DNA from: a bacterium | Lineage (GTDB): Bacteria > Zixibacteria > MSB-5A5 > GN15 > FEB-12 | Reading direction: 5' to 3' | DNA: 47,216 nucleotides | Assembly: GCA_030605565.1 (NCBI GenBank) | Contig: JAUWIB010000124.1 | Coordinates: 1-47,216 of the forward strand | In this document: positions 18,624 to 47,017 of the stretch, piece by piece | Position numbering within the stretch: the stretch's first letter is position 1 | How the letters are laid out: every line of letters starts with the position of its first letter | The notes under the pieces: model-generated | Database searches by the model: none | Told to the model about the DNA's origin: nothing | What the model saw: the letters and a program-made list of their open reading frames with translations, nothing else | Translations under genes and position numbers: made by a program

Positions 18624-19424
18624 CTATTTCCCCGTCAACACTTTTTGCATGGTGCGGTGGATGTGGCCGTTGGAGGCCAGGATGTCTTGATCGAAGATCG
18701 AAAACGGTTTGCCCGACAGCCGAGTGACCCGGCCGCCCGCTTCTTCGACGATCAGCCTGGCCGCCGCCGTGTCCCAGGGATGCAAATACAATTCCCAGAA
18801 ACCGTCGATCCGCCCGCAGGCCAGCCAGCAAAGGTCAATGGCCGCCGAACCGGGACGCCTGACAGCCTGCGCCTTCTTGACCATACGGGCGAACAGGCCG
18901 AGGTTGTTCTTGCGGTCGGTATGGACACTGTACGAGAAGCCGGTGGCCAAAAGAGAGCGTTCCAGTCGATTTTCGCCGGAAACGTGGATCTTGTGTCCGT
19001 TCAGACGGCTGCCAAGCCCTTGTCCGGCGGTGAACATCTCATCGCGCTCCGGATCGTAGACAGCCGCTCCAATAGCCTGTTCATCGTACTCAACAGCGAT
19101 AGAGACGCAGTACACCGGGAAACCATGAGCGAAATTGACGGTGCCGTCGAGGGGATCGATCACCCAACGATACGGTGAAGTTGTCTTACGATCCGTACCC
19201 TCTTCGGCCAGAATTGCATGATCCGGGTAGCGCTTTGCGATCTGAGAAGTAATCAGTTTCTCGGCTTTGAGATCGAACTGCGTCACCGGATCTATTCGAC
19301 CCTTGTAAGTAACGGATATCCTCTGGTTGAATCCACGCTTAAGCACAGCGCCGGCCTCACGGGCCAGGTGCGCGCCGAAATCAATGAGTTCTCTTATGTC
19401 CTTGCGCGTTGGTGACATATTCAC
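18624..19424 (-). CDS. suhB: Inositol-1-monophosphatase family protein (SuhB-like)
   Basis: This family removes phosphate from inositol 1-phosphate or related small phosphates using magnesium. The 266-residue length is standard. Metal-binding motifs are complete: ILAEEGT (Glu near 75), WVIDPLDGTVNFAHGFP (Asp-Pro-Leu-Asp-Gly-Thr), and the late LHPWDTAAARLIVEEAGG. Start is GTG 19424, whose GTGA overlaps the stop of the upstream ABC gene, so translation is coupled; ATG two codons later is the alternative. The link to an ABC exporter suggests a phosphorylated lipid or polyol precursor, or simple co-expression. Substrate is not provable from sequence; suhB is used in the family sense. Confidence 0.9.
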   Translation of the reverse strand: MNMSPTRKDIRELIDFGAHLAREAGAVLKRGFNQRISVTYKGRIDPVTQFDLKAEKLITSQIAKRYPDHAILAEEGTDRKTTSPYRWVIDPLDGTVNFAHGFPVYCVSIAVEYDEQAIGAAVYDPERDEMFTAGQGLGSRLNGHKIHVSGENRLERSLLATGFSYSVHTDRKNNLGLFARMVKKAQAVRRPGSAAIDLCWLACGRIDGFWELYLHPWDTAAARLIVEEAGGRVTRLSGKPFSIFDQDILASNGHIHRTMQKVLTGK

Positions 19425-21232
19425 TTGCTTTTGGCCGCCGGTGACGGTTCCTGCCCGGCCGGCTTCTGGTATTGCATCCGGTATAACGTCTGATAGATAC
19501 CTGGCTGCTGAATCAATTCATTGTGCGTGCCTATCTCGCGGACCTCTCCATGATGCAGCACGACGATTTTGTCGGCTTTTTCAATCGTGGACAGCCGGTG
19601 CGCGATCACGATTGACGTCCGGTCCTTCAATAACTCATCGAGCGCTTTTTGAATCAGCAACTCGGTTTCAGTATCCACGGAACTGGTCGCCTCGTCAAGA
19701 ATCAAAATGTCCGGATCGAAAGCAAGGGCGCGGGCAAACGACAGCAGTTGTTTCTGACCGGTCGACAGCGTAGCGCCGCGCTCCTGAACCTCGGTGTGGA
19801 TACCATCCGGGAGGGTCTCAAGGAAGCGATCAAAGCCGACACGATGAAGGGCGCGCTTCACGTCATCATCGGAGATCCTCTGGTCACGCAGTCGAATGTT
19901 TCCGGCGTAGTCACCGGTGAACATGAAGACATCCTGCAAAACCAGACCGAGATGCGAGCGGAGGCGCCCCAGTGACCAGTCCGTGAGCTCGACGCCGTCG
20001 AGTTTCATCGATCCGCGTTGGTAATCATAGAACCGGTACAACAGCGACACCAGCGAGGTCTTGCCCGCCCCGGTGGCGCCCACCAGCGCGACTTTTTCGC
20101 CCGGTTCGACGGTGAAGGACACGTCCTTGAGCACCCATTCGTCAGGTTTGTAGGCAAACCAGACCTTCTCCAGGGAGATGCCCCCCTTGAAACTACGCGA
20201 ATGGTTGCCATCACCACCGCCGTCGGCCGGGACAGTATCCAAAAGCGCGAAAATGCGCTCGGACGAGGCCATTGATGCCTGCAGGATATTGTACTTTTCG
20301 GACAGATCGCGAATGGGTCGATAGAATCGTTCGACCAAATGGATGAAGGCTACCAACTCTCCGAAAGTCAGGGTGGCTTCGTTGATTTGTACGCCGCCAT
20401 AATAGAGCAGCAGCGCCAACGACAAGGCTCCGATTATTTCTACGGTCGGGAAAAAGATGGCGTAATAATAGATGCCGCGAAAATGTACCGACCGTAAGTC
20501 CCGATTGATATCGTTGAACTCATCAAAGGTGTGATTTTCTCTCACGAACAGTTGCAGCAGTCTGATGCCGGTGATGTGTTCCTGCACGAATGCGTTCAAC
20601 CGGGCCACCCTGGTGCGTACCTCACGGTAGATGCGTCGCACCTTGGCGCGAAACAGGAAGGTCGCCAGGACCAAAAGCGGCAGCACAACGAAAGTTATCA
20701 GGGCCAGTTTCCAGTTGTAGTAGAGGAGAGCGCCGACAATCAGGGCCAGCATGAACAGGTCACCGATGACGGCCACGACGCCGGATGAGAACATCTCGTT
20801 GAGCACGTTGACATCGCTGGTCACGCGAGTTACCAGTCGGCCCACCGGATTCTTGTCGAAGTAACTCAGCCGCAGACTCTGGAGGTGAGCGAAAACCTGC
20901 ATTCTGATATCGTGCAGTACCTTCTGTCCCAGCCATTGCGTGATGTAGAGTTGTGCATAGGCGGCGCCGGAAGCGAGGATGACCGCCACCAGGAAAATCA
21001 GCGCCATCCGCAGCAGACCCGCCTGATCCCCGCTGCCGATATACTCGTCGATGGCAATCTGAGTGATAAAAGCAAAAGATATCTGAAACAAGGAACCCAG
21101 AAGCAAAAAGACAACGGCCAGCAGTAGCCACCGTCGGTAGGGCCGAATGTAGGTGAGCAGTCGCTTCATGAGCCGCGCATCATACGCCTTGCCCAGCACC
21201 TCTTCCTCGTGGTAGTTGTTGACGTCGCTCAT
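19421..21232 (-). CDS. Heterodimeric ABC exporter, catalytic-site half-transporter
   Basis: The 603-residue half-transporter has a six-helix exporter membrane domain (about residues 20-320) and an ATPase domain (350-590). Walker A is GATGAGKT (385-392), Walker B is ILILDE (509-514, catalytic Glu514 kept), and the H-loop is VIAHRLS. The signature is LSTGQ (489-493) instead of LSGGQ. In heterodimers such as TM287/288 and BmrCD, one partner has an altered signature and the other has Asp in place of the catalytic Glu; both changes are present in this pair. The start ATG 21232 overlaps the partner's stop (ATGA). The cargo is unknown: lipid, drug or peptide. Confidence 0.93.
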   Translation of the reverse strand: MSDVNNYHEEEVLGKAYDARLMKRLLTYIRPYRRWLLLAVVFLLLGSLFQISFAFITQIAIDEYIGSGDQAGLLRMALIFLVAVILASGAAYAQLYITQWLGQKVLHDIRMQVFAHLQSLRLSYFDKNPVGRLVTRVTSDVNVLNEMFSSGVVAVIGDLFMLALIVGALLYYNWKLALITFVVLPLLVLATFLFRAKVRRIYREVRTRVARLNAFVQEHITGIRLLQLFVRENHTFDEFNDINRDLRSVHFRGIYYYAIFFPTVEIIGALSLALLLYYGGVQINEATLTFGELVAFIHLVERFYRPIRDLSEKYNILQASMASSERIFALLDTVPADGGGDGNHSRSFKGGISLEKVWFAYKPDEWVLKDVSFTVEPGEKVALVGATGAGKTSLVSLLYRFYDYQRGSMKLDGVELTDWSLGRLRSHLGLVLQDVFMFTGDYAGNIRLRDQRISDDDVKRALHRVGFDRFLETLPDGIHTEVQERGATLSTGQKQLLSFARALAFDPDILILDEATSSVDTETELLIQKALDELLKDRTSIVIAHRLSTIEKADKIVVLHHGEVREIGTHNELIQQPGIYQTLYRMQYQKPAGQEPSPAAKSK

Positions 21233-22992
21233 AACTTGTCCAGTTGCTCCGCCAGCAGTTGTGAACGGTACAGATCGGCGTAGTGGCCACCCTGTTGCAC
21301 CAGTTCGTCATGGCTGCCTTGCTCTATGATGCGACCGTCCTCCAGATAGAGGATGCGGTCGGCCTGCTTCACCGATGAGATGCGGTGCGAGATGATAATC
21401 GAAGTGCGACCCTCGAGGACAGAGGCCAGATTCCGGTTGATTTCCGCCTCGGTCTCAGTGTCGACCGAGGAGGTGGCGTCGTCGAGCACCAGCACGGCCG
21501 GTGCGGCAACGATGGCGCGCGCGATGGCCGTGCGCTGTTTCTGGCCGCCGGAGAGAGTGATGCCGCGCTCTCCGACCATGGTCCCGAAACCGTCGGGAAA
21601 AGTGCGGACGTCCCGGGTAAGAGCGGCTGTCGTCGCGGCTGTTTCAATCGCTTCATCGGTGGCGCTGTCAGCGCCGAAGCGGATGTTGTCACCGATACTT
21701 GCCGAAAACAGGAACGGTTCCTGGGTAGCGAAACTGATCTGCCCACGCAGCGCCGAAAGTTCCCAGTCGTTGATGTCGACGCCGTCGATGAACAACTGTC
21801 CGCGCGGGACAGGATACATTCGGGCCAAAAGCGACACCAGGGTTGTCTTGCCGGAACCGGTGCGCCCCACCAGGCCGATTGTCCGGCCCGGTTCGATAGT
21901 GAGGTTGATCCCTCTGAGTACTTCGGTACCGTTATAGCTGAAACGGAGGTTCGAGAACTCGATCTGCCCACGCATTTCACCGACGTGCAGCTCACCTGGT
22001 TCATCGCGGATGACCGGCTCAGTTTCAAGGATGCGGTTGACGCGTTCCAGCGATGCTTTGCCGCGTTGATAGAGCGAGACGACCCAGCCCAAGGCCACCG
22101 CGGGCCAGATGAGCATCGACAGGTAGGCAAAAAACGCTACCAGCGTGCCCAGAGGAACAGCCCCGCTCATGACCTCGAGGCCGCCGAAGTAAAGGGCGAT
22201 CAGTGTCAGCAAAGAGGCCAGCGTCATCAGAAGCGGAACCATCATGGCGTACAGCCGAGCCAAATCCATGTTGAGTCCGAGGTACTTTTGCGAAAGGGAT
22301 CTGAAGTGCTCGACCTCGTTATCCTCCTGGCGAAATGATTTGATCACTCGTACGCCGGCGATATTCTCCTGCACCGCTGCCGTTAACACCGAAAAATGTT
22401 CCTGTATCTTCATGGCGCGACGGTGCACCATGTTTCCCACTCGGTTGGCTATTAGCGGGAATAGCAGCATCGGTCCCAGGGCGTAGAGGGTAAGTCGCGG
22501 AGAAAGATACAGCATGAAGGCCAGCGCCACGACAAAAGTGACCAGCGTGCTGCTCAAATGCATTATGCCGGGACCAACCATCATACGGATCGCTTCGAGA
22601 TCGTTGGTCAGCTTGGCCATGAGGTCGCCGGTGCGGGTGCGGTCATAGAAGGACGGGGACAGCGTCAGCAGGTGTCTGAAAATCTCGCCGCGCAGGTCGC
22701 ACTCGACCCGACGCGACATCCAGATGACGGTGCGCCGCGTCAGAAACCGAAAGAGACCGGACAGGATGGCCAGTCCAACCATCGCGAGCACCCAGTGCAA
22801 GCGTTCGCTGTCGGTCCCCTTGTTCTCCAGAAGGTCAAAAATGATTTTGGTGATATAGGGCAGGACGAGGATCAGCAGGTTGCTGCAAACGATACAAACG
22901 CCGCCCGCGATCAGGTATCCCCGGTAACGCCTCAGGTACTTGGTGATGGTGTCGAACGGGCCGGGAGGGTGGGGTTGTTTGTCTGCGTTCAC
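21229..22992 (-). CDS. Heterodimeric ABC exporter, degenerate-site half-transporter
   Basis: The 587-residue half-transporter has an exporter-type membrane domain (about 20-310) and an ATPase domain (345-580). Walker A is GRTGSGKT (376-383), the signature LSGGQ (480-484) is canonical, and Walker B reads VLVLDD (500-505), with Asp505 where the catalytic Glu should be. It therefore contributes the non-hydrolysing ATP site together with the partner's LSTGQ. The start is GTG 22992 with a weak Shine-Dalgarno. It is the first gene of a three-gene overlapping operon with the second half-transporter and the SuhB-like enzyme. Confidence 0.93.
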   Translation of the reverse strand: MNADKQPHPPGPFDTITKYLRRYRGYLIAGGVCIVCSNLLILVLPYITKIIFDLLENKGTDSERLHWVLAMVGLAILSGLFRFLTRRTVIWMSRRVECDLRGEIFRHLLTLSPSFYDRTRTGDLMAKLTNDLEAIRMMVGPGIMHLSSTLVTFVVALAFMLYLSPRLTLYALGPMLLFPLIANRVGNMVHRRAMKIQEHFSVLTAAVQENIAGVRVIKSFRQEDNEVEHFRSLSQKYLGLNMDLARLYAMMVPLLMTLASLLTLIALYFGGLEVMSGAVPLGTLVAFFAYLSMLIWPAVALGWVVSLYQRGKASLERVNRILETEPVIRDEPGELHVGEMRGQIEFSNLRFSYNGTEVLRGINLTIEPGRTIGLVGRTGSGKTTLVSLLARMYPVPRGQLFIDGVDINDWELSALRGQISFATQEPFLFSASIGDNIRFGADSATDEAIETAATTAALTRDVRTFPDGFGTMVGERGITLSGGQKQRTAIARAIVAAPAVLVLDDATSSVDTETEAEINRNLASVLEGRTSIIISHRISSVKQADRILYLEDGRIIEQGSHDELVQQGGHYADLYRSQLLAEQLDKL

Positions 22993-42634: not shown

Positions 42635-42812
42635 GGGAACCAAATCTCCATTATCAGGTTATATCATGGTTGATGAAGTACAAAGTTTTATGTATCTGAG
42701 GAGTTCACATTGTACGAGATTTTCCGATATTATTATGTAGTGCTCGACACATCGGGATTTGCCGCGCGAAGGGGTAACCCTGCCCAACACGCGGCTACCA
42801 GCATTTGGGGGA

Positions 42813-43190
42813 ATGGTCTTGAAGGTACTGGTTGTTGACGATGAAGAGATGATCCTGTCCATCGCGACCAAGATTCTCGAGCGACAGGGTTACGAAGTGA
42901 TCACGGCTTGGTCTGGTGAAGAGGGGATCAGGAAGTGCTTCGAGCAGTCCGACCGGATCGATCTGATGCTTCTGGATTTGACTATGCCGGGGCTTTCCGG
43001 TGTTGAGACGCTACGCCGGGTACGCCAAACCCGCCCCGATCTGCCGTGCATAATCTCCAGCGGGCACAACGCCGACTGGGATAGCATCCCCGAGGATTTG
43101 AAGGCCAACGTACATTTTCTGCGGAAACCGTACCGGGCCGAGAAGCTCACGGAACTGGTGAACAGTATTCTGTTGACAGAGACAACTTAG
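42813..43190 (+). CDS. Stand-alone response-regulator receiver protein
   Basis: Receiver domains are switched by phosphorylation from a histidine kinase. The 125-residue protein is only a receiver: acidic pair Asp9/Asp10, phospho-acceptor Asp55 in LMLLDLTMPG, Ser82/83, and Lys105 in LRKPYRAEKL. No output domain follows, as in CheY/Spo0F-type relays. ATG 42813 is chosen because the conserved strand VLKVLVVDDEE begins there; the frame extends 18 codons upstream to a TTG. GGGGG lies very close to the ATG, so TTG 42819 is another option. No kinase is adjacent. Confidence 0.88.
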   Translation: MVLKVLVVDDEEMILSIATKILERQGYEVITAWSGEEGIRKCFEQSDRIDLMLLDLTMPGLSGVETLRRVRQTRPDLPCIISSGHNADWDSIPEDLKANVHFLRKPYRAEKLTELVNSILLTETT

Positions 43191-43548: not shown

Positions 43549-43615
43549 CCACGAAATCATTCCGTAGAAACAGGTTTCGCAATTTCTTCTTTAACCGTCG
43601 CGCCTAATTCACTAT

Positions 43616-43653
43616 TATCCCATCAATGAATAGTAACTCCAAATGATGGGATA
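43616..43653 (+). promoter_or_regulatory. Inverted repeat directly before the start of 43656-46001
   Basis: TATCCCATC (43616-43624) and GATGGGATA (43645-43653) are perfect 9-bp complements 20 bp apart; a nested ACTATT/AATAGT pair lies at 43611-43634. The right arm ends two bases before ATG 43656 and covers the only Shine-Dalgarno-like bases (GATGGGA). An operator or a translation-blocking hairpin is plausible. Confidence 0.55.
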
Positions 43654-43655
43654 CG

Positions 43656-46001
43656 ATGTTTAGTTTGAAAACTTATAGTTTGATATCGCTGGTTTGCCTT
43701 TGCCTGGTAATTCTTACTCTCACGGCGGTGGCCCAACAGAAGAAACGGATCAACCTGGCGTTCTTTGAGGCCGGTCGCTGCCTCGAGCATGACATCCTGC
43801 GTGATGAGTTCAGTCATCAACTGCAGCAGTTATCACCTGAGGGCTTCGAGATCCTACCGATCCCGCAGGGATACAAAATGGCTGAATGGAAACGCGACAG
43901 TTGTCGGCTTCTGGCGGCCGAGTTGGTTGCACTCGAAGAAGCCGATATGGTCGTGGCTTTGGGTCCGTGGGTGGTGGAGGATCTGCTGGCGGCTGGGTAC
44001 GACAAACCGATCGTGGCGTTGAATCGAGTCGACCCGGCGGTTGAAGGACTGCTGGACAAAAGCGGTCGTCCGATCGCTCCGAATCTTACGGTACAGGCGC
44101 GCCCGATACAACTGGCGCGTGATATCGACGCCTTGACCCGACTGATCAATGTGCGGCGTCTCGGTGTGCTGTATTTCCCTACCGGCGATGAGCAAAACGA
44201 TATAATGGCAAAACTACAGTCGCTGGGTGAGCAGCATGGTTTTGAAGTACTCATGGCTGAAGGGTACGACAATAAGGGCGCTTATGCCTTTTTCAAAGCC
44301 TACCACAGTCTGGCCGGGAAAGTCGACGCTGTTTATCTGTTTCCGATGTGGGCAATGGACGGCATCAAAATCCGCGAGTTCTTTGCCATGACCAAACGGG
44401 ACAAGATGCCCACGTTTGTGTGGGAGGGGGCTTATCTGGTACAGCGCGGAGCGCTGGCCGGCAACAGCGGATTCTCGGTGATTCCACAGGCTCGGATGGC
44501 CGCCGTCAAGTTGCTGAAAATAATCGAGGGAGCCACCCCGGCCGACTTGCCGGTGGTTTTCGATGTTCCTCCGGGACTGTCTATCAACGAGGCAACGGCT
44601 GCTCAGTGCGGCGTTACGATCCCGACCACGCTGGAGCGTGAGGTCCGGATTGTCCGCGCCCCCCCAACTGAAGACAGCCGCTATTTCGGTTTCAACGATG
44701 CCTTGCGCCAGGCTATCGATGCCAATCCCTCCCACCTGGCCCGCTATGACGTCCTGGAGGCATCTGCCCAGGCGGCAAAACAAGCCTATGGCGCATATCT
44801 TCCTCACTTATACGGTCGGTTTTCGATTACTCACTTTGACGGCAGCAACATCATAGCATCCGACGGCTACGAGTCCGGGATCGATCTGGACCAGACCGTT
44901 TTCTCGCTGGAAGCGATTCGCGCGATTCAAGCTGCGGCCCAGCGTCGTGGTATCGAACAGATCAACCTGCGTCAATCGCAACTCGATCTGGAACTGGCTG
45001 TCACCCTGGCCTATCTGAACTATCTACAGGTGAGGGATGCCCTCGGGCTGTACCAGGAAGATCGCAATCGGGTGAGCCGCTTTCTGGAGTTGGCTTTCAC
45101 GCGACGAGAAATCGAGGGCAACCCCGGCCGAGACGTCACTCGCTGGGAACAGAATCGACATGAAGCCGACGCCAGAGTCGTTCGCGGCGATAACGACCTG
45201 GTAGCAGCCGGCGTGTTGCTGAACTCGTTGTTCAATCTTCCAGGACATAGCGAACTGACGCTGGACACAGTGGCTTTTGCCGAGCCGAACCTGGTGCGCG
45301 ACTACCGACGGCTGTTTCCACGTTATGACAATCAAAAGGTCCAGGAGCAGGTCAGCGAATTGTTGGTAACTGAAGCGCTGACCAATAGTCCGACTGTCGG
45401 CGTCCACCGAGCGCGGATAACCCTGCAGGAAAAGCTGCTGGCGCAGAATCGCGCCCGTTTTTTCCCGACCCTGGGACTCAGGGCCTCGTACTATTATACT
45501 GACGTGAACTGGGATCAGGATGTCGGCCTGCCGGAGTATTACGATCGATGGTGGGCTCGCGCCGAAATCAGGTTGCCGCTGTTTCAGGGGGCTGATCGTT
45601 TTCGTGAGCACAGCAAACAGAAAGCGCTGTTGAGCCGGGAGGAATACATGCGCGACGACGCCAGCCTCAGGGTCATGCATGAAGTACTCACACGCTGGGA
45701 CGAACTGATCACGCTGGGAGCCAGCCTGCCAAGTTACGTCCGGGCCGGGGAGTTGTCGTTGACGGAGCTTCAATCGTTGATCGGCGACTATGAGTCGGGC
45801 CGGATGCCGCTAATCGATCTGGTGGACGCCCAGCGCAACAGCTTGCAGGCGCGACTGACGGCAATAGATGCTCGTTACCGGTTTTACCGGTCGCTGGTTC
45901 GGCTGACCCATGCCCTCGGTTGGTCGGCCTCAGATCATAGCCGCATGCCGGGTGATCTGTTTTTCGACGGTGTGGCGCGGCTCGCCGAAGATGGCGAGTA
46001 G
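43656..46001 (+). CDS. ABC-type substrate-binding domain fused to a TolC-family outer membrane protein
   Basis: The 781-residue protein starts with a signal peptide (SLVCLCLVILTLTAVAQQ, cleavage near 26). Residues about 31-330 form a two-lobed periplasmic binding domain of the ABC_sub_bind/TrpX type (VVALGPWVVEDLLAAGYDKPIVALN, then RRLGVLYFPTGDEQNDIMAKLQSL, PTFVWEGAYLVQRGALAGNSGFSVIPQARMAAVKLLKIIEGATPADLPVVF). A short linker (331-342) leads to a TolC-type domain (about 345-770): repeated helix-strand halves with FNDALRQAIDANPSHLARYD, LAVTLAYLNYLQVRDAL, ALTNSPTVGVHRARI and PTLGLRASYYYTD. TolC proteins form outer-membrane channels with a periplasmic tunnel. There is no stop between the domains. 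Confidence 0.88.
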   Translation: MFSLKTYSLISLVCLCLVILTLTAVAQQKKRINLAFFEAGRCLEHDILRDEFSHQLQQLSPEGFEILPIPQGYKMAEWKRDSCRLLAAELVALEEADMVVALGPWVVEDLLAAGYDKPIVALNRVDPAVEGLLDKSGRPIAPNLTVQARPIQLARDIDALTRLINVRRLGVLYFPTGDEQNDIMAKLQSLGEQHGFEVLMAEGYDNKGAYAFFKAYHSLAGKVDAVYLFPMWAMDGIKIREFFAMTKRDKMPTFVWEGAYLVQRGALAGNSGFSVIPQARMAAVKLLKIIEGATPADLPVVFDVPPGLSINEATAAQCGVTIPTTLEREVRIVRAPPTEDSRYFGFNDALRQAIDANPSHLARYDVLEASAQAAKQAYGAYLPHLYGRFSITHFDGSNIIASDGYESGIDLDQTVFSLEAIRAIQAAAQRRGIEQINLRQSQLDLELAVTLAYLNYLQVRDALGLYQEDRNRVSRFLELAFTRREIEGNPGRDVTRWEQNRHEADARVVRGDNDLVAAGVLLNSLFNLPGHSELTLDTVAFAEPNLVRDYRRLFPRYDNQKVQEQVSELLVTEALTNSPTVGVHRARITLQEKLLAQNRARFFPTLGLRASYYYTDVNWDQDVGLPEYYDRWWARAEIRLPLFQGADRFREHSKQKALLSREEYMRDDASLRVMHEVLTRWDELITLGASLPSYVRAGELSLTELQSLIGDYESGRMPLIDLVDAQRNSLQARLTAIDARYRFYRSLVRLTHALGWSASDHSRMPGDLFFDGVARLAEDGE

Positions 46002-46141: not shown

Positions 46142-47017
46142 TCAAGATCCCAACTGCTCCAACTCGTAGCGCAGACAGTTGCTTCCCAGACAGAAGTAGT
46201 ATTTGATGCGCAACAACGAACTGACCGGCTTACCCTCGCGAATGCTTGGTGCAAACACCCACTCCGGCAGCACCTTGAGGAAGTTCTTGGCAAAAAACCA
46301 GTTGGGCGGTTCTTCCTTGACGGCGTAATTGACAATCCTGCGCGTGCTGCCTACCGTGTATTCGAGAGTCTGAATCTCCTCGCCGCCGATCCAGTCGGGA
46401 AATGTCGTGAGTGCGCCCGTGCTGTCAATATAAACCAGTACGGTGATGTTGCCCTCCTTGCCGGCGTCACGCGCCACGAAAGGATACTCTGGGTCGAGCT
46501 TATATACCACCTGTGCCTGTCGCGTTACCGGCGGGCGAACGTTTTCCGGGGGCAAGTATGCATTTGCGGTAGTGTATTCCTCCGGCAGAAACAGCCCTTC
46601 TTCGTCACCCTCCACAGTCGAAAAGGACGGAGTGCTGTCGCCCTCCAAAGGGGCGAGGTCCGGTACGTATACGTCGGGCCGTTCTGCGATCAACTCGGGC
46701 GCCTGGCACACCGGGCGAAGGTTTACGAAGCCGAGGAAGCCATCATGCGCGGTGGCATACGGATTAATCCCGCCGACTGCCACCATGGCCGGTTTCTCGG
46801 ACGGCTCAACCAGGTCGCGATCCGGTATCACCAGATTCGGAACTGTCGGCGGCGAAGCGCATCTCGGCGTGGGTCCATCAAGTGACCGAACCCACAACCC
46901 AAACCCCAGACTGAGCATTACACACACGCCTAGTCCGAACAGCATATTCCGTTGGTACTTTTTCTTCTGTTCGTGGAGCGACAATACTACGCCACCAGGT
47001 TCGTACATGCCGGGCAC
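46142..47017 (-). CDS. TonB-like energy transducer
   Basis: The 291-residue protein has a short cytoplasmic start, one membrane helix (MLFGLGVCVMLSLGFGLWV, about 25-43), a Pro-rich periplasmic linker (about 50-165), and a C-terminal domain with the TonB layout: DPEYPFVARDAGKEGNITVLVYIDSTG followed by a charged strand and helix region and EWVFAPSIREGKPVSSLLRI. TonB passes energy from the inner membrane to outer-membrane receptors. GTG 47017 has an AAGGAG box at 8 bp; ATG 47008 is the alternative. No exbB/exbD is in the window, and it is convergent with the TolC fusion. Some TonB-fold proteins have other roles. Confidence 0.82.
   Translation of the reverse strand: MPGMYEPGGVVLSLHEQKKKYQRNMLFGLGVCVMLSLGFGLWVRSLDGPTPRCASPPTVPNLVIPDRDLVEPSEKPAMVAVGGINPYATAHDGFLGFVNLRPVCQAPELIAERPDVYVPDLAPLEGDSTPSFSTVEGDEEGLFLPEEYTTANAYLPPENVRPPVTRQAQVVYKLDPEYPFVARDAGKEGNITVLVYIDSTGALTTFPDWIGGEEIQTLEYTVGSTRRIVNYAVKEEPPNWFFAKNFLKVLPEWVFAPSIREGKPVSSLLRIKYYFCLGSNCLRYELEQLGS

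Follow-up and report, generated by a model that had tools for sequence, protein, structure and literature searches.

The window analyzed here, a stretch of 47,216 nucleotides of contig JAUWIB010000124.1 from a bacterium of the phylum Zixibacteria, contains on its forward strand a single uninterrupted ORF, which extends from the ATG at 43656 to the stop codon at 46001 and encodes a protein of 781 aa. In agreement with the original prediction, a periplasmic substrate-binding domain (SBP) and a complete TolC-type channel follow each other in this frame with no stop between them (Table 1). A putative signal peptide, with a hydrophobic stretch at residues 6–26 followed by A-V-A/Q, was recognized by eye only. 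In a Pfam search, both of the families that had been named beforehand exceeded their curated cut-offs: PF04392 was matched at residues 56–326 (E 1.2e-11, 44.8 bits vs. a cut-off of 25.9) over profile positions 21–285 of 293, i.e. in both lobes, and PF02321 in two stretches representing the two OEP repeats (E 2.4e-29, 102.9 bits vs. 22).

Table 1. Coordinates of the fusion, its parts and other features of the window
Feature	Positions	Strand	Basis
Adjacent pair of exporter-type (MsbA-type) ABC half-transporters	19424..22992	-	
Stand-alone response-regulator receiver (REC) upstream of fusion	42759..43190	+	PF00072, E 3.7e-22
Two 24-nt direct repeats between REC gene and fusion	43264..43311		copies 92% alike
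Promoter-like site between REC and fusion	43591..43618	+	9/12 match to consensus; consensus match only
SBP-TolC fusion protein	43656..46001	+	single ORF, domain matches, full-length conservation
Signal peptide, residues 1–28, Sec/SPI-like, AVA/QQ	43656..43739	+	sequence by eye
SBP (PF04392, TrpX-like), residues 29–330	43740..44645	+	Pfam, profile match to PDB
Linker, about residues 331–342	44646..44681	+	poor conservation; TolC alignment
TolC-type outer-membrane factor, about residues 343–760, two repeats	44682..45935	+	PF02321 x2, TIGR01844, E. coli TolC alignment
Protein with partial TonB C-terminal matches, convergent with fusion	46142..47017	-	

The C-terminal part resembles the TolC/OMF family (PF02321, TIGR01844; E. 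coli TolC, 1ek9) in its two OEP repeats, its length of about 400 residues and the alignment of most of mature TolC with residues 368–756, but differs from it in bearing an N-terminal SBP of about 300 residues and in its score against TIGR01844, the NCBIfam model of type I secretion TolC proteins, which could be aligned with residues 346–755 at 105.4 bits, below the model cut-off of 225.15. Since residue 25 of TolC is aligned with residue 368, the mature TolC start should be placed near residue 343, and the linker is therefore about a dozen residues long. The N-terminal part is matched at residues 42–330 by the PDB sequences 3lkv and 3lft, and a profile built from ten fusion SBP domains yielded 3lkv (E 7e-23), 6hni (8e-15) and 3lft (2e-14). 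Thus, most of the two-lobed domain is alignable with TrpX/ABC_sub_bind proteins (PF04392), of which 3lft binds tryptophan; unlike these, it is a covalent part of an outer-membrane duct and has no importer. An AlphaFold model based on the window protein and three near-identical loci (four sequences) had a pLDDT of 34 and was discarded.

Distribution and phylogeny of the fusion

Homologs of the fusion are widespread in the phylum. Among 41 genomes of the same order (that of the window and 40 relatives), 34 yielded a match, mostly full-length and without stops, and the stop-free full-length homologs, present in most of the 41 genomes, are 28–96% identical. Across the surveyed phylum, matches at E below 1e-20 were found in 71 of 132 genomes and 44 of 85 genera, and most of them are full-length, the genome count including a few partial copies at contig ends and a TolC-only match (G119). 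The scan of genome contigs returned only three MAG contigs of the CSMAG series, each deposited separately, which contain the fusion at 92–96% identity and give dN/dS values of 0.04–0.17 over both domains; viral contigs searched for the fusion yielded no match. The same architecture is also present outside the phylum, in a protein of 803 aa from Sulfuricurvum kujiense DSM 16994 (Campylobacterota; WP_041667226.1, plasmid pSULKU01), which is 18% identical in the alignment, phyla other than that of the window having been sampled through plasmid records only. A frameshift or an assembly join between the domains is ruled out by the single ORF, by the stop-free homologs across the phylum and in S. 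kujiense, and by the three separately deposited MAG contigs. The SBP-TolC join is a genuine and old feature that dozens of genera have conserved.

In the titles, abstracts and passages of open-licence literature that were searched, no description of this architecture was found. Each of the two domains is well known, and their combination, for which we found no description, is a variant of the outer-membrane factor family. It is easily missed, because the name that RefSeq gives to the S. kujiense homolog, “ABC transporter substrate binding protein”, covers the first half alone.

In the tree of SBP domains, all 30 fusion copies are separated from 30 stand-alone SBPs of the phylum with branch support of 100/100, and in the tree of TolC halves the fusion copies form one group (support 94/92) as opposed to five other TolC proteins, the joining branches being long in both trees. 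Two clades of fusions, designated here the pump clade and the orphan clade, the latter containing the window, are recovered identically in both trees. This topology is compatible with a single fusion event and a later division into two clades, which would be the simplest reading rather than a proven history. The TolC protein from G119, 456 aa in length and without an SBP, is unusually similar to the TolC part of the fusions, and may represent either a pre-fusion form or a loss; it belongs to an apparent TolC-adaptor-AcrB-sized operon on contig C95 (L090:3189-8737), in which the neighbors were judged by size only.

Genomic surroundings in the two clades

The pump clade has six members, and all six loci examined sit in exporter operons of the drug-efflux type. 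Five of the operons have the order fusion-HlyD-AcrB (L049, L050, G093, G121, G077); it occurs in the genomes G001, G022, G093, G121 and G077, the genes of G022 being assigned because they cluster with those of G001. In G121 and G077, PF04392 gave no score at E 0.001, and the SBP half was placed by alignment and tree. The sixth operon, that of S. kujiense, reads fusion-HlyD-RbbA ABC-2 ATPase-ABC-2 permease. Since all six loci lie in HlyD-AcrB or HlyD-ABC-2 operons, the pump-clade fusion, judging from gene order, provides tripartite exporters of the RND and ABC-2 types with their outer-membrane component, which supports the earlier expectation of export rather than ordinary uptake.

The window fusion differs from that of S. 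kujiense in its clade and in its surroundings: no pump genes were found directly beside the fusion in the orphan clade, and no pump gene is a conserved neighbor there. Cognate permease or ATPase genes of an ABC importer were likewise not found beside the window fusion, and the ABC genes located there and beside its relatives are of the exporter type. The predicted lack of an importer nearby thus holds to the extent that the window was scanned: the only genes for ABC transporters identified there are those of the MsbA-type pair. This pair is found divergently upstream of the fusion in seven loci; as a candidate partner it was rejected, since all 47 genomes searched in the order possess it as a core gene, whether or not they have the fusion. 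The genome of the window contains five PF02321 genes and three AcrB-type genes. One of the latter, on contig C79 (L107:5468-9771), forms a HlyD-AcrB pair that lacks an adjacent gene for an outer-membrane factor, the next gene, on the opposite strand, coding for a pyruvate formate-lyase-like protein. This pair was also rejected as a dedicated partner, because f2 genomes without the fusion have its orthologs and most genomes with the fusion lack them. In one relative, an AcrB-type gene appears as two matches with an internal TGA (G009:C13:39902-43044).

We regard as very unlikely a role in uptake, in which the TolC part would form a passive pore in the outer membrane and the SBP would gather an incoming nutrient for an inner-membrane importer. 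Although importer receptors are known among PF04392 proteins, TrpX being an example (PMC9382623), and the orphan clade has no local exporter, importer genes were not seen beside the fusions examined, relatives of the window fusion lie in exporter operons, and a tethered SBP would be unable to diffuse to a permease.

A stand-alone REC gene, for which the listed TTG start is probably too early, precedes the window fusion at a distance of 466 nt. Among the 35 loci of f1, the family of the window, that have enough flank, such a gene lies directly upstream in 17, always on the same strand and with gaps of 33–544 nt, and is absent from the other 18, as well as from all 12 f3/f4 loci. No histidine kinase was seen beside the fusion-adjacent REC gene. 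The stand-alone PF04392 SBPs of the phylum adjoin histidine kinases in 27 of 30 loci. One such cluster, on contig C34 of the window's own genome (L081:2158-7246), has the order SBP-HK-REC-REC-HK: the SBP, a stand-alone PF04392 protein, comes first, the kinase next to it is a HAMP histidine kinase, and after the receivers there is a receiver-kinase.

The recurrent same-strand REC gene, the kinase-linked SBPs and the better conservation of the SBP than of the channel in the orphan clade (see below) could all be taken to mean that the SBP senses a ligand, either extracellular or periplasmic, at the outer membrane and signals it to a two-component pathway including the upstream receiver, with TolC serving as an anchor or as a ligand entry pore. 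We nevertheless consider such a sensor unlikely. The receiver is cytoplasmic, the fusion belongs to the periplasm and outer membrane, and a route between these compartments is lacking, with no kinase gene between receiver and fusion; in addition to the loci from which REC is missing, the intergenic gap in the window contains a promoter-like site. The SBP-histidine kinase operons do share with the fusion the PF04392 domain and the nearby receiver genes, but they consist of separate proteins, and their SBPs group apart from all fusion SBPs.

On the other side, a convergent CDP-alcohol phosphatidyltransferase gene (pgsA-like) follows the fusion in 26 of 34 f1 loci, which is probably mere synteny. 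In the window, its place is occupied by the gene for the protein with partial TonB matches.

Sequence constraint, the presumed cleft and the proposed mode of action

The two halves of the protein show opposite patterns of conservation in the two clades, making the role of the SBP directly testable. In the orphan clade (43 sequences), the SBP is more identical than TolC in 901 of 903 pairs, with means of.409 vs..288, although misalignment of the fast-evolving TolC half could inflate this lead. In the pump clade (six sequences), it is less identical than TolC in 15 of 15 pairs (means.337 vs..422). In very close comparisons, which involve few substitutions, the SBP is not the more constrained half, its dN/dS being 0.13–0.17 vs. 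0.04–0.11 for the channel.

The ligand contacts of TrpX (T108, A127, T129, D152, N233 and Q273; PMC9382623) were mapped on the fusions by alignment, with the orphan clade represented by 24 sequences. In these, the published set T108, A127, T129, D152 and N233 is not retained. The position of T108 is taken by P104, part of a G103-P104-W105 motif present in 24/24 sequences; N233 is aligned with W232 (20/24), the T129 position is F or V (20/24), that of D152 is R149 (15/24), and that of A127 is variable. Four further residues, E38, G40, W78 and N143, are invariant among the 24. In the pump clade, the positions of T108 and N233 vary and are mainly hydrophobic. With near-invariant residues at or beside the contact positions and the TrpX contacts themselves replaced, the presumed cleft of the orphan clade, its lining residues being assigned by alignment, appears to be conserved but rebuilt. 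The SBP of this clade is unlike what would be expected of a TrpX-type tryptophan receptor, and its specificity has presumably changed. Since the presumed cleft is conserved, a ligand-dependent role in the orphan clade is plausible, cleft conservation being equally in line with gating, loading and sensing. Ligand control need not be a general role of the fusion, however, since proteins of the pump clade vary at the positions of the TrpX contacts and conserve their SBP less well than their TolC half.

TolC-type ducts are usually regarded as passive exits, with the pump and its adaptor choosing the substrate. A conserved duct with its own ligand-binding module would put recognition at the exit. 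Our preferred interpretation, which we hold with moderate confidence, is that the fusion serves as a duct for export across the outer membrane and carries, within the same chain, a ligand-binding module whose specificity has changed, the pump being encoded elsewhere. In its favor are the exporter operons of the pump clade, the grouping of the fusion copies in both trees, the two OEP repeats and the well-conserved SBP of the orphan clade; against it are the lack of a conserved pump neighbor in that clade, the rejection of both the C79 pair and the MsbA-type pair as partners, and the dN/dS values of the very close comparisons. Here a TrpX-type SBP, joined through a short linker to the N-terminus of a TolC-family outer-membrane factor, would be carried by a trimer in the outer membrane and would act with it as the exit duct for that pump. 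The SBP is attached just before helix H1, which in outer-membrane factors is located in the equatorial belt (PMC8277102); the three binding domains would accordingly encircle the tunnel at its waist, within the periplasm. In the orphan clade, the binding domain may be specific for a small ligand that it recognizes through contacts different from those in TrpX, and binding would either capture an export substrate near the conduit or alter docking or opening of the duct. More tentatively, the orphan-clade protein could be a ligand-gated or ligand-loaded duct, in which a small molecule bound to the three tethered SBPs controls opening, docking or loading; if so, an importer-type receptor would have been recruited to control export.

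Replacement of the TrpX contact residues at nearly every position also raises the question of whether the SBP now binds anything at all, or only stabilizes the duct or fixes its partners. There is a precedent in YbjP, a periplasmic protein that is attached laterally to TolC in E. coli and has no supported signaling role; it binds TolC in the same general region as that proposed for the SBP on the fusion (PMC13082787), but is a separate DUF3828 lipoprotein and not an SBP. Such a purely structural role fits better with the pump clade, in which the SBP is less conserved than TolC and contact positions vary mostly among hydrophobic residues, than with the orphan clade, in which the near-invariant P104, W105 and W232 at or beside contact positions would not be expected of a dead cleft; for the fusion as a whole, we find it improbable.

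As regards an export duct served by a pump encoded elsewhere, the TolC part of the fusions carries a hairpin-tip motif of the Y-x-x-G...DLLDAQ type. This motif is only loosely conserved in the orphan clade, so that docking to an adaptor may have been lost there.
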